DNA from: Halobacteriales archaeon YIM A00010
Lineage (GTDB): Archaea; Halobacteriota; Halobacteria; Halobacteriales; Haloarculaceae
Direction: 5' to 3'
NCBI GenBank assembly: GCA_025041175.1
Contig: JAKCFJ010000002.1
Location: 806,001 to 870,000, forward strand
Length of the DNA stretch: 64,000 nucleotides
This document shows positions 6,357-48,305 of the stretch, piece after piece; position 1 is the first letter of the stretch, and each line of letters starts with the position of its first letter. The notes under the pieces are model-generated. The model was not told the origin of the DNA and did not search any database. It saw only the letters and a list, made by a program, of their open reading frames with translations. The position numbers were made by a program, and so were the translations under genes.

Positions 6357-7053
6357 GGTAGTGTTCAGATAAGCTGATTCCATGCGAATGCGAACGATCG
6401 AAGCCACTCGTTTGCAGTTTCTGCTTTGGCATTGCTGAAACAGTTTGAGAACAAAGAGGTACGTCGTTTTATTTCACGAAATATACGTTCGACGCTGTTC
6501 CGATTTCCGTGGCGTTCATATCTGACATCGAAGCCGTGTCGACGACACGCGTGTTGTAATGAATGCGAGCCATCAACGAGAAACACAGCCTCCTCAACAT
6601 CATGCTTCTCGGCGAGTGCAGTGAGAAACGATTGAGCGAGAACCGTGTTTGTCGTCGGTTCAAGCATTGTGTGAAGCAATTCGTTTGTTTCGGGATCAAC
6701 CGCAGCGTACAGCCAATACTGCTCGTCGTTCAGTCGGATCACGGTCTCGTCAACCGCAACGTGATCCGGGCTTCGTCCATTCTCGGGCTGTAGATCGGCC
6801 TTGTGAACCCAATTGTGAACGGTCGAACGAGCCCGTTCAACACCGAATATCTCAAGAATAGTAACGGTATTCGAAAGCGATAGACCAGCAAGGTGGAGCT
6901 GAATACCGAGCTTCATCAACAGTCGCGGTGTTGCTTCTCGCTCCATAAAATCCAAGTCGGTGTCGTCCAAACATCCATTGAGGCGGGCGTTTTCGGGCAT
7001 ATGACACTCAGAAAACGAACCGCCTCATACTTCATCCGTATCTGAACACCGCC
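6357..7053 (-). mobile_element. IS6-family insertion sequence, complete
   Basis: The element is bounded by imperfect 18-bp terminal inverted repeats. The left end is GGTAGTGTTCAGATAAGC at 6357-6374. The right end, read inward on the minus strand, is GGCGGTGTTCAGATACGG at 7036-7053, a 14/18 match. It encloses one transposase. The bases just outside the two ends do not form a target-site duplication. A simple insertion would have left one, so a deletion or recombination at the element is likely. A truncated Bat-type regulator directly beyond the right end fits this. Confidence 0.8.
6365..7000 (-). CDS. IS6-family transposase
   Basis: The 211-residue protein is full length for haloarchaeal IS6 transposases. 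It begins MPENARLNG and has an N-terminal helix-turn-helix part (TVTILEIFGVERARSTVHNWVHKA). The catalytic triad stretches are HVAVDETVIRLND (Asp), VFLVDGSHSL (Asp) and GNRNSVERIFREIKRR (Glu). It ends in the usual SFAFAWNQLI. All parts are intact, so the enzyme may be active, unlike the decayed relative at 47795-48305. Confidence 0.9.
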   Translation of the reverse strand: MPENARLNGCLDDTDLDFMEREATPRLLMKLGIQLHLAGLSLSNTVTILEIFGVERARSTVHNWVHKADLQPENGRSPDHVAVDETVIRLNDEQYWLYAAVDPETNELLHTMLEPTTNTVLAQSFLTALAEKHDVEEAVFLVDGSHSLQHACRRHGFDVRYERHGNRNSVERIFREIKRRTSLFSNCFSNAKAETANEWLRSFAFAWNQLI

Positions 7054-7905: not shown

Positions 7906-8119
7906 TATCGCGTTAAGAATCACTGTATTTTCCAGAAAGACAGATGCAAAGCCCCACCCTCAAGGAGTGCTGGGCGTCCGATTGAATCGACGCACTATGC
8001 TGATCGTGTGCTAGCAGGGAGGTGAAACAGCGAATAACAAGATCAGTGAAACCACCGCTCGAAAGTGTTATAATTTCGATTCGACGGAGACACCTCCGAG
8101 CTCCGCGTGACAGCAGTTT

Positions 8120-27239: not shown

Positions 27240-28156
27240 ATGACGACACCGAATGCATCCGACGCCCCGTGGCGGCACGCGACAACGACAGCGAACGGAC
27301 TCACGTTTCACTACGTCGAAGCCGGCGACGGGCCGCTTGTGCTGTTATTACACGGCTTTCCCGAGTTCTGGTATGCGTGGCGTCACCAGATTCCCGTCCT
27401 CGCAGACGGGGGTATCACGTGGCTGCTCCCGACCTGCGCGGCTACAATCGCACGGACAAGCCGGCCGGCGTTGGCAACTACCTCATCGAACGTCTCACGA
27501 GCGACGTCACCGCTCTCATTAGGGCGCTCGGCCACGAGACGGCGATCATCGTCGGCCACGACTGGGGGAGTCTCATCGCGTGGGAAACCGCGATGCGCTC
27601 TCCCGCGTGCGTCGATCAGTTGGTAGTTATCAGTAGCACACATCCTGCCCTCTTCGACCGTGAACTAAGCCGCCCACGTGGGCTGGTCCGCGCGTGGTAC
27701 ATGTACGCCTTCCAGGTCCCTTGGCTTCCCGAACGCGCACTGACAGCCGGCGAGCACTACGTGCTCGAAAAGCTGTTCGACGCCACACTCGTGGACGAGG
27801 ACGCGTTCACTCGCACTGATCGCCAGCGATATCACGCTGCATGGGCACAGCCCGGCGCGCTGACGGCCATGCTCAACTATTATCGGGCCAATACGGCCAC
27901 GACGCTCGTCCGGTCGGTGCTCTGGTCGCGGCTTGGCCTCGGCGCGGTCCCAATGACGCGTCTGAGCCAGCAGCCCGTCACAGTCCCGACGCTCGTTCTC
28001 TGGGGCGACCATGCTCTCTACGAGCCAGTGGTGTTGAATGGGATCGAGAAATGGGTGACGGAGGTCGACATCGAACAGGTTGCCAACGCCGGCCACTGGC
28101 TGCACGCCGAACAGCCAGCCGCAGTGAATCAACTGCTTCTCGAAGCCCTTACCTGA
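27240..28156 (+). pseudogene. Alpha/beta hydrolase (epoxide-hydrolase-like), single frameshift
   Basis: The frame from ATG 27240 starts [20 protein letters not shown] and continues [20 protein letters not shown], the oxyanion-hole HGFP motif, then [18 protein letters not shown]. There it goes out of frame. The protein resumes one frame over as [33 protein letters not shown] (nucleophile Asp in GHDWG), VTVPTLVLWGDHALYEP (acid) and ANAGHWLHAEQP (His). The break falls within GACGGGGGTATCAC near 27406-27415, where one base appears to be missing. Every catalytic residue is otherwise present. It is either a recent pseudogene or a sequencing error in the G-run. Confidence 0.82.
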
Positions 28157-28389
28157 GTGTGAGCGTAGCATGTATTTTAGTAGGAGTGATGGATCGTCCA
28201 GGTGCGCTTCTCGCTATTTCATTCCTTTTCACATCAGTAATTCAAGTATAGGTACAGCGAGTACAAAAGGGATGATCCCGAATGCGACCACTTCGAGCAC
28301 CGGGAGTTACTGATACCAATTGAGATCGTGTGGGGGTTTCTTCCCAGGGGTGCCTGTCGGATGTTCGTAACCCGGATTAGTCATCGCGG

Positions 28390-28446
28390 TAGTTATACAA
28401 ACTCAAGGAGAATACCTGTCCCTTCAGGGGCAGGATGAATCTGCCA
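28390..28446 (+). other. Right-end-like remnant of an IS200/IS605 (TnpB) element
   Basis: AAACTCAAGGAGAAT is followed by a near-perfect hairpin (CCTGTCCC TTCA GGGGCAGG) and ATGA. This is the pattern at the right boundary of haloarchaeal TnpB elements, where the omega RNA scaffold ends. The preceding 28157-28390 holds no readable tnpB. Confidence 0.4.
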
Positions 28447-28489
28447 ATGGAGACCTATTCTACGATCGATCGCCAGTCCGATTGTAATC

Positions 28490-28770
28490 ACTATCTTGAA
28501 GTAACAGGCCATCGGACATAGAACTGGGGATCAGATGGAACCAGAGCGATTTCTATCAGTCCTACGATGGCGGCCTGTCCGCCCCAAGCAACCAAGCAAT
28601 AATCGGAACCAGGCAATGACCGCCCAATTCTCACAGAATTGCTGCGGAGTTGACTGCTGTAAGCACACCGCAAGTAACTCCGAGTCTGATGACGCCGCCG
28701 TGAGTCTCGATGGGCACAAATAACCACGAGACCCACCAACGCAAAGGATAGGAGTACCGGGGGCTTGGCA
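28490..28770 (-). pseudogene. Possible decayed membrane-protein gene
   Basis: Pieces in different minus-strand frames read VLLSFALVGLVVI, then THGGVIRLGVTCGVLTAVNS, ENWAVIAWFRLLLG and AIVGLIEIALVP. They are hydrophobic and helix-like, as if one membrane protein had suffered several frameshifts. The family is not recognised. Confidence 0.25.
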
Positions 28771-28773
28771 TCA

Positions 28774-28866
28774 CCAGAACGCATAGCGTTCTGGTTAGCA
28801 GCCGAGCTTCGCTCGGCGACATCGCCAAAACCGAAGGTTTTGGCTAGCAGCCGGACGTAGTCCGGC
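28774..28866. repeat. Ordered array of four 3-nt-loop hairpins
   Basis: Four perfect hairpins follow each other with 6-7 bp between them: CCAGAACGC/GCGTTCTGG (loop ATA), GCCGAGC/GCTCGGC (loop TTC), CCAAAACC/GGTTTTGG (loop GAA) and GCCGGAC/GTCCGGC (loop GTA). Hairpins 1-2 and 3-4 form two repeats of a roughly 50-bp unit. Linker TAGCA follows the first hairpin of each unit and GACA follows the second. The stems differ between units but stay paired. The array lies just before a TnpB-element right end. Confidence 0.8.
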
Positions 28867-29010
28867 GACACTCCCAGCAGTCCCACCCGCTACAGTCCAG
28901 GAGCATCCCTTCGGATTCTCACCGGTTGGGTGCTTGGTGAGACTGTCAACCTGAAATCTCCAACGCTCAGGATTCCTCCGCGTTCACGCGGAGGAGGATG
29001 TCAATCATCC
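28867..29010 (+). other. Right end of an IS200/IS605 (TnpB) element, omega-RNA-like
   Basis: The segment runs through GGGTGCTTGGTGAGACTGT and CCAACGCTCAGGATT to a strong hairpin (CCTCCGCG TTCA CGCGGAGG at about 28975-28994) followed by AGGATGTCAATC. This is the layout of the right end of haloarchaeal TnpB elements, where the guide-RNA scaffold ends in a GC hairpin and GATGTCA. No tnpB frame lies upstream, so it would be a solo end. Called from remembered pattern. Confidence 0.5.
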
Positions 29011-29194
29011 AGTGCCAGCCGAAACCGTGCGGTTTCTTCCTCGGCTAACACCCACCTACTGAGACGGAGAGGACGCCACGAATCGATGCCGGATTCCCTC
29101 GCGATCGAGCGACGATCACTTTCGGGTGGCGGCGAATAGTTATGCGGTTCAGCGGCGTTGGAGTGAACGTGGGCGGCGATCCACCATAGAACGA

Positions 29195-29638
29195 ATGTCA
29201 GTACCCATGAACGTAGATATTTTCGAATCCACCGTCACGATCGATGACTCCTGTATCACTGAACCACCCGCCGTCATCCGCGAGCAAGTACGCGAGTACG
29301 AGCGCGGTGACCGCCACACGTTCGACCTGACGGTCACCATTCCGGAGAAGATGACGGGCAAGGTGATGACCGCAGTGCTCGATATTCCGTACGGGAAGAC
29401 GCGCACGTATGGCGCGCTCGCGTCGGACCTCGACACCACACCCATCGCCGTAGGACAAGCGTGCGCACGCAACCCCGTGCCGCTGGTCGTCCCCTGTCAC
29501 CGCGTCGTGGGGAGCGACGGTGATCTCAAAGGGTATTCGGCGGCTGACGGCATCACCACGAAGCGCCAGCTACTCGATCTCGAAGCGCGCGAAGAGGGAA
29601 CAGAACCGATGCAGACCCGGTTACCGACGCAGACGTAG
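29195..29638 (+). CDS. ogt: Methylated-DNA-protein-cysteine methyltransferase
   Basis: From ATG 29195 this is 147 residues. The C-terminal active-site domain is complete: VMTAVLDIPYGKTRTYGALA, then ARNPVPLVVPCHRVVGSDGD and LKGYSAADGITTKRQLLDLE. The PCHRV cysteine (near residue 100) takes the alkyl group from O6-methylguanine in a one-time repair reaction. The N-terminal part is short, as in small archaeal Ogt proteins. Another ATG at 29207 is possible. It is transcribed alone. Confidence 0.9.
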   Translation: MSVPMNVDIFESTVTIDDSCITEPPAVIREQVREYERGDRHTFDLTVTIPEKMTGKVMTAVLDIPYGKTRTYGALASDLDTTPIAVGQACARNPVPLVVPCHRVVGSDGDLKGYSAADGITTKRQLLDLEAREEGTEPMQTRLPTQT

Positions 29639-30073
29639 GAACGATCGCCGGCTCAGGAACCCGGCGAAGCGGTCATATCCGTCGCTTCCGGCCCTCGACG
29701 TATGGCGAACGATCGTTCGCCGCCAGTTTCGATCAATCAACGTCATCGAGCAGCATCCGCTGTTACCTCCGATTCTCACCCGATGTAGGTTACAACACGA
29801 CGGGTGCCAGCACCAACTGTACTGTGCGGTGCGTCCCATGGCTTGGTCTGGTGTCACGTCGCGATTGGGCGTGAACGCGGCGTACGTCCCGTCGACGGGA
29901 CGTACAGCTGATGGCGGCTAGATAGCCAATCAATGCACAGGTCCGATATTCGTTCCAGCAGACTCTAATAAACGCCAATTTCACGAGTGTAACAAAGTTG
30001 AGGAGCTGTCTCTATCGATCCTGGTTTTGGGATCTAGCCTGCGAACACGACTGAATCGCTTGGAAGCGGCCCA
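29639..30073. other. Intergenic stretch with a 24-bp perfect palindrome
   Basis: No convincing gene lies in these 435 bp. At 29882-29905 a 24-bp palindrome has arms GTACGTCCCGTC and GACGGGACGTAC. Around 29800-29850 the plus strand weakly resembles the YWLYAAVDP region of the IS6 transposase, so a very old IS6 remnant is possible. Confidence 0.4.
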
Positions 30074-47794: not shown

Positions 47795-48305
47795 TCTGTG
47801 TCGGCGCTGTTGAAATAGTTTGGAAAACAGAAAGTTTGTTGTTTTACCCCGTGAGAAATACGTTCGTCGCAGACACCGAATCCGTGGCGGGAGCAGGCCG
47901 TGGAGCGGAGTCACTTCATACGAGAACCACGGCGTTCTCGGGACATCGTCGACGGCGGGCCGCAGAAAGCTCGGCAACGCGACCCACGTTTGGGCTGTAG
48001 CAACTCGTTTGATTCGGGATCGATAGCGTTCACGAGACGTGGAGCGTCTCGTTCGCACACCAGAATCCGAAGGATTCTGGGGACGTTCACGAGAGCGCAG
48101 CTCTCGTGGGCCAGCCAAAACGCGAAGCGTTTTGGTGACTACGTACAGCCAGTAGCGTTCCGCACCCAGTTGTGAACGGTCGAACATATCTATTCGACAC
48201 CAAAACATATCAGTAGTAATTGTTGTATTTTAAATCTATGATTTAGCAAGGTAGAGCTACATACCGAGCATCATAAACAGTTTCGGCGTTGTTTCTCTCC
48301 AACGT
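47795..48305 (-). pseudogene. Decayed IS6-family transposase, split by a hairpin array
   Basis: Both ends align by eye with the intact IS6 transposase at 6365-7000. The piece at about 47795-47900 matches the C-terminal codons (KLFQQ..., corresponding to SNCFSNA). The piece at about 48165-48305 matches the N-terminal third (TVHNWV region and start). The middle contains many changes and the four-hairpin array at 48032-48135. No frame is open throughout. Confidence 0.65.
48032..48135. repeat. Ordered array of four hairpins inside the IS6 remnant
   Basis: Four perfect hairpins occur in a row: ACGAGACG/CGTCTCGT (loop TGGAG), CCAGAATCC/GGATTCTGG (loop GAA), CACGAGAGC/GCTCTCGTG (loop GCA) and CCAAAACGC/GCGTTTTGG (loop GAA). 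They form two copies of a 55-56-bp unit, each beginning GTTCACGAG and ending TGG plus GAC. The CCAGAA/CCAAAA hairpins match, in order and sequence style, those at 28774-28866. Confidence 0.8.

Follow-up and report, generated by a model that had tools for sequence, protein, structure and literature searches.

The closest match to the DNA element described here, judged by description and among the open-access literature, is the SMR-A group of Haloquadratum. The SMR-A elements of Haloquadratum walsbyi (HqIRS42, HqIRS43, and HqIRS55) are short, transposase-free sequences of ~110 bp that occur in many copies, have terminal inverted repeats, and commonly share >95% identity within a type (PMC3119063). 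They insert in the near-terminal palindromes of PATEs (palindrome-associated transposable elements) and IS605-type elements without target duplication, and their mobilization was termed enigmatic by the authors (PMC3119063). More distant comparisons are offered by the CGTC class of REP sequences, which have stems of 8–9 bp, A-T first pairs, and loops of 4–5 nt (PMC3733652), and by the Rickettsia palindromic elements, which are ~150 bp long and lie mostly in frame within unrelated genes (PMC10969869).

The window analyzed here, a stretch of 64,000 nucleotides from the genome of a Halocatena-like haloarchaeon, contains four perfect hairpins, each with a 3-nt loop, which together form a 100-bp block of two two-hairpin units (Table 1). 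Read on the minus strand, the block has the layout TGTC-hairpin A-TGCTA-hairpin B-GA, twice over, and the linkers between successive hairpins are TAGCA, GACATC, and TAGCA. The first-pass annotation of this DNA had described four hairpins with conserved linkers and changing, still-paired stems, grouped in two units of ~50 bp, and this description was borne out in each part. The units are 51 and 49 bp in length and agree in layout; they are 76% identical, and their stems differ in a compensated manner with 100% pairing retained. The folding energy of the whole block lies far beyond that of shuffled sequences, with z = -7.4 for DNA and, for RNA of the two strands, z = -6.6 and z = -6.4. Both units are recognized by a covariance model from whose training set they were absent, and a second double-hairpin array is present in the window, as the label “locus 1” in the annotation had implied. 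We regard it as probable that the block consists of a double-hairpin DNA element of ~45–59 bp, present twice in tandem, which is mobile but non-autonomous and is kept paired at the DNA level.

Table 1. Hairpin arrays, host element, and related sites in the window.
Feature	Positions	Strand	Basis or remark
Host element, non-coding, IS605/TnpB-type (PATE-like)	28390..29004		Same-genome copies share both ends; ends from alignment and sequence
Host element left-end hairpin	28415-28434		Alignment and sequence
Host element right-end hairpin	28974-28995		Alignment and sequence; element end at ~29004
Inserted block, two double-hairpin units	28770..28869	-	Alignment with paralogs whose site is filled, empty, or occupied by another hairpin pair; missing from C3:293.9k
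Unit 1, stems of 7 and 10 bp	28771..28821	-	Covariance model, 59.8 bits, E 3.9e-15
Unit 2, stems of 7 and 9 bp	28822..28870	-	Covariance model, 48.0 bits, E 8.3e-12
Hairpin ACCAGAACGC-ata-GCGTTCTGGT	28773..28795		Window sequence
Hairpin GCCGAGC-ttc-GCTCGGC	28801..28817		Window sequence
Hairpin GCCAAAACC-gaa-GGTTTTGGC	28824..28844		Window sequence
Hairpin GCCGGAC-gta-GTCCGGC	28850..28866		Window sequence
Second double-hairpin array, variant linker class	48030..48140	-	Covariance model, 39.0 and 32.3 bits
Intact IS240-type transposase, empty site	6365-7000	-	Pfam PF13610; one of three hairpin-free copies
Intact palindrome arm TTGAGGGTGGGGCTTT, unit-bearing site in other genera	7948-7963	-	Palindrome comparison

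The block lies inside a TnpB-less element of 615 bp with IS605-type ends. The first-pass annotation had placed it directly before the right end of a TnpB element; that end is indeed near, but the array sits within the element. A further possibility raised there, that the array belongs to a known tnpB coding sequence, was rejected, as the minus-strand open reading frame that spans the array and overlaps the host element has no Pfam match. Other copies in the same genome provide the filled and empty states of the site. In the paralog at C3:293.9k, the letters CTTGGC are followed directly by ACTCCC, whereas in the window the two are separated by exactly the 100 bp of the block. The paralog at C3:666.8k carries another hairpin pair between the same flanking letters, and the same four hairpins recur at C1:1081k (99% identity over 121 bp) in a host copy that is much more diverged.

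Filled and empty sites were found at other loci as well. The inserts cluster in size at about 45–59, 100–102, and 161–164 bp, their right junction starts with TG in most cases and with CG in one class, and no target duplication exceeds an ambiguity of 1–2 bp. Seven paralogs of one gene, with flanks ~78–86% identical pairwise to the C1:931k copy, include five that are filled and two that are empty at a single point. The 45-bp block of the filled copies is identical in three and loop-inverted (gaa/ttc) in a fourth, while the fifth has another B stem, altered in both of its arms (CCAGAAATC to CCGAAACTC), together with unchanged linkers and full pairing. This multi-copy gene (C1:23k, 931k, 1278k, 1637k, 1735k, 2059k, and 2632k; motif WCRPCQSTGCAH) has no Pfam match and is apparently a dispersed repeat itself. 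Among the copies of an IS240-type transposase, five bear hairpins at the codons for QYWLY/QYWLS, whereas three, including the window copy, are free of them. The palindrome CCCCACCCT...AGGGTGGGG is split by a unit at AGGG^TGGGG in six copies (C4:228k of the same genome, Halorubrum amylolyticum, Halogranum amylolyticum, and three further genomes), whereas five empty copies, one of them in the window, have it whole or almost whole; judging by their general appearance, we take these palindromes to be the ends of haloarchaeal IS605/tnpB elements. Further pairs with clean insertions are found at C1:1612k, C1:1637k, C2:14.5k, C2:101k, C2:220.4k, and C2:220.8k.

The insertions concentrate in mobile elements, namely IS240-type transposases, tnpB, tnpA, and IS605 ends, and some genes are disrupted. 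Three of 27 arrays lie within 300 bp of TnpB zinc-domain genes (0.13 expected), and many arrays lie outside IS605/PATE palindromes. Two inserts maintain the reading frame: a 51-bp unit in a tnpB gene of 417 aa (...TAM[SPSEARLLTRNRRFLVM]SWYE..., L012 about 285-335) and one of 45 bp in the gene of a Y1 transposase (...FVWC[RKSKIYCSQISDLRC]PKYRH..., L228 about 1820-1880). Other inserts in genes introduce stops or frame shifts. Several arrays of different linker classes stand in a row within ~1 kb at C1:931.0-932.0 kb, a hot spot of nested insertion.

These comparisons show that insertion points are exact, that whole units are either there or missing, singly or in multiples, and that the points lie mostly beside TG or CG. 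They show mobility in the evolutionary sense, read from filled and empty sites among diverged paralogs and other species, where gain and precise loss look alike in any one case. The units may spread as single-stranded or cruciform DNA that is recognized through the linkers together with the hairpin fold. New units would insert in phase at the TG of the linker GATGTC, leading to array growth; because this linker also carries TG, nested insertion is expected to yield in-phase arrays. A more specific proposal, which we advance tentatively, is that of an archaeal class of transposable element defined by a fold and two linkers, in which a putative recombinase or transposase would read the linkers and the paired hairpins of extruded or single-stranded DNA but ignore the sequence of the arms, the arms would drift by template switching while movement continues, and in-phase arrays would build up at TG/CG targets inside mobile elements.

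The mobile-element reading can be narrowed by naming an enzyme, with the units as minimal IS605 ends, resembling REP/REPIN sequences, that are moved in trans by Y1 (HUH) transposases of the IS200/IS605 type. Such transposition would agree with the absence of target duplication and with the insertions beside IS605 ends, and the right end of the window element, which is of IS605 type (GGAGGATGTCAA), is similar in arrangement to a hairpin with GATGTC after it. Hairpin pairs also occur at two of the four Y1 loci of the same genome, where they sit inside or beside Y1 genes or in the partner tnpB, but none of these Y1 genes is flanked by units as an intact RAYT/REP pair. Nor does the host element share the target preference of the units, since its own insertion point resembles TTAT rather than TG. 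Co-occurrence did not support a resident Y1 transposase as the mobilizer: a Y1_Tnp match was missing in 7 of 16 array-positive genomes and present in 13 of 16 pattern-negative genomes, the latter being negative for the exact pattern described below and not for the covariance model. Y1 transposases are therefore not needed where arrays persist, and arrays in Y1-free genomes could be relics. On balance, we consider this assignment of the enzyme unlikely.

The extent of the family was explored at several levels. A scan of 864 kb of the same genome (C2 1-400 kb, C1 0.9-1.3 Mb, and the window) that demanded no linker detected 30 clusters of at least two hairpins, compared with a total of 5 in three replicates generated from this DNA by a first-order Markov model (1.7 by chance), and linkers emerged from it nonetheless: TAGCA (9), GGCA (9), AAGCA (6), and GACATC (5). 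With a query of 121 bp, 53 matches were obtained in this genome (5.97 Mb, 7 contigs). The exact pattern GTCRCCN{9,17}GGYTGCTARCC occurred 41 times and its backward control not at all; it was found in 18 of the 146 genomes examined for the family and, at the level of the class, in 38 of 391, representing 16 of 84 genera, counts that include a few single matches that form no hairpin and are due to chance. Hosts of real hairpins include Halorubrum amylolyticum, H. alkaliphilum, Halolamina salifodinae, Halomarina oriensis, Halocatena pleomorpha, and Halogranum amylolyticum. Three matches were on plasmids, all of Halocatena, and 22 pattern matches in viral contigs contained no hairpin array when checked. 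Positions 1-50000 of a Halocatena marina plasmid contained no array; on a plasmid of this species, a gene annotated as an ABC transporter ATPase contains a unit (L185 5001-5058) in its 3' part. The covariance-model search of haloarchaea that the first-pass annotation had proposed was extended to a phylum-wide sample, in which, at E <= 1e-5, matches were obtained in 16 of 22 haloarchaea and, as one weak match each, in 2 of 97 other archaea, this 22/97 split being taken from listing order with 81 of the no-match genomes not itemized. Compensated copies exist in many genomes, contrary to the annotation's own caveat that there might be none.

Maintenance of pairing was assessed with 32 distinct units having 10-bp stems, collected by a script that required TGCTA, a GT[CT] foot, and near-hairpins; 31 of these equal-length units were aligned after exclusion of one (locus L262) with 3 + 3 mismatches. 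Standard pairs occupy 98.2% of the 620 cells, and 14 of the 20 pairs have changed on both sides. Among changed cells, 82 are altered on both sides and 4 on one side yet still paired. In controls with partners slid by 1–3 columns, 1–5 both-sided pairs were left and pairing fell to 24–44%. The level of pairing is partly selected because near-hairpins were required, whereas the kinds of stem change were not selected. Maintenance of pairing, as first proposed from the window alone, is confirmed by these 31 units from many genomes, which were also used to build the covariance model. Sequence comparison further shows that the linkers do not change from one haloarchaeal genus to another, whereas the two arms of a stem change together.

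Certain features of the hairpins are general. Stems are 7–10 bp long and vary freely, with stem pairs 2 and 3 mostly C-G. The loops of all arrays exhibit a striking triloop preference, being mostly GNA or its complement TNC and closed by C-G; of 151 perfect hairpins, 146 have this closing pair. In DNA, triloops of the form C-GNA-G show unusual stability. Against the reading as two-hairpin units, an odd number of hairpins was detected in 10 of 48 oriented arrays, a count in which imperfect hairpins may have been missed.

The arrays might also have arisen without any movement between sites, as neutral palindromes made and lengthened by replication slippage and template switching alone, and the perfection of the arms, the inversion of loops, and the joint changes of the arms would agree with this. 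Homogenized arms and inverted spacers are indeed described as marks of template switching (PMC8604942, PMC8794818). Slippage, however, would not protect the linkers, which stay the same as the stems change; identical kinds of unit are found at unrelated sites and in many genera; and in the paralog alignments the junctions of empty sites contain no seed palindrome. We judge a purely neutral origin to be distinctly improbable. Within the mobile-element reading, template switching may instead account for upkeep: it, or gene conversion, would copy one arm into the other, inverting the loop and keeping the arms perfect.

A benefit to the host has even less to recommend it. The units could serve as binding sites, for example in chromosome structure or as terminators, or as a brake on IS elements, and for SMR-A a role in defense was proposed by the authors who described it (PMC3119063). 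The clustering of insertions in mobile elements is in keeping with such a role, but tolerance alone would also yield it. Copy number varies widely among congeners, with 9 to 152 covariance-model matches per Halocatena genome, a range in which both strands are counted and at most 150 candidates were scored per genome, so that 152 is not a number of places. A function of this kind seems highly unlikely.

The explanation with the poorest prospects among those considered seriously is a structured RNA undergoing compensatory evolution, whether a small RNA, an mRNA 3' element, or part of a TnpB guide RNA. The strong fold on either strand and the strong covariation are what an RNA would display. G-U pairs, however, should then be favored over their complements on the functional strand, and no such bias exists: mismatches on the linker-defined strand comprised 11 of G-U type and 10 of A-C type among 88 distinct hairpins across genomes (94 distinct pattern strings less 6 without a hairpin), and 6 of each type in arrays of the same genome, with 29 of 77 clusters excluded from the strand tests for lack of linker orientation. 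This equality argues against RNA, as do the scarcity of one-sided intermediates, the insertion of units in several kinds of coding sequence, and the failure of an Rfam search of positions 27500-30000 to return a match up to E = 1. Loops are likewise balanced between strands across genomes (26 GNA, 26 TNC). The single opposing observation is a lean in the same genome, with loops of 72 TNC, 40 GNA, and 39 others among copies that are not independent, and this could arise from related copies or a strand preference. The RNA reading was rejected and appears very improbable. Of the two causes of pairing offered by the first-pass annotation, the folded transcript thus loses ground and the DNA-level alternative is favored. 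A CRISPR array was dismissed because the constant parts are linkers of 4–6 nt and the remainder is palindromic, with no constant repeats separated by unrelated spacers.

A mobile double-hairpin DNA element would have several consequences. The loosely grouped “enigmatic” small mobile repeats of haloarchaea are now tied to a defined unit, for which any genome can be scanned with a covariance model. Units that occupy the same site with swapped arms constitute many natural replicates for testing the upkeep of DNA hairpins by template switching, a process that is usually debated from RNA genes. Strong covariation by itself should not be regarded as proof of an RNA. A structure-reading enzyme, if one exists, would represent a recombination system of a new kind, and in archaea that are genetically tractable.

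Among known systems, the double-hairpin elements of fungal mitochondria also consist of two hairpins, and their mobility was inferred from presence or absence; they are organellar, and we know of no link between them and the haloarchaeal units. By analogy, the attC-like sites of integrons, in which a folded single strand serves as the recombination site for an integrase, may provide a functional parallel. REP/BIME sequences and CGTC/TGTC-tagged palindromes are, like the units, short hairpins with a tag (CGTC, often TGTC) at their foot that form dimers and clusters and occur in many copies, but differ in that the present stems vary at 7–10 bp with pairs 2 and 3 mostly C-G and the loops have 3 nt (PMC3733652). 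TGTC precedes hairpin A, yet the GTAG or CGTC tag with its class stem and loop is absent, hairpin B lacks an inverted copy of the tag, and no cognate Y1 transposase flanked by the repeats accompanies them as a RAYT. The two frame-keeping inserts recall the Rickettsia palindromic elements (PMC10969869), whereas several double-hairpin inserts disrupt transposon genes.

By their description, the SMR-A elements of Haloquadratum and the present units differ in that the latter measure 45–59 bp, contain two hairpins, and occur singly or in any number up to many, without the ~110-bp length, >95% identity, or terminal inverted repeats, and in their freely changing stems, tandem growth, and occurrence in many genera (PMC3119063). 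No such array was found in positions 1-46000 of the 46867 of Haloquadratum plasmid PL47. The similarities are nevertheless extensive: the double-hairpin units are short, transposase-free, and multi-copy, they cause no target duplication, and they follow the same target rule by inserting at the AGGG^TGGGG palindrome and in the PATE-like element of the window (PMC3119063). That host element itself fits the PATEs in its near-terminal palindromes, lack of coding capacity, and IS605-like ends, and the window array is a guest within it that is missing from a sister copy (PMC3119063).
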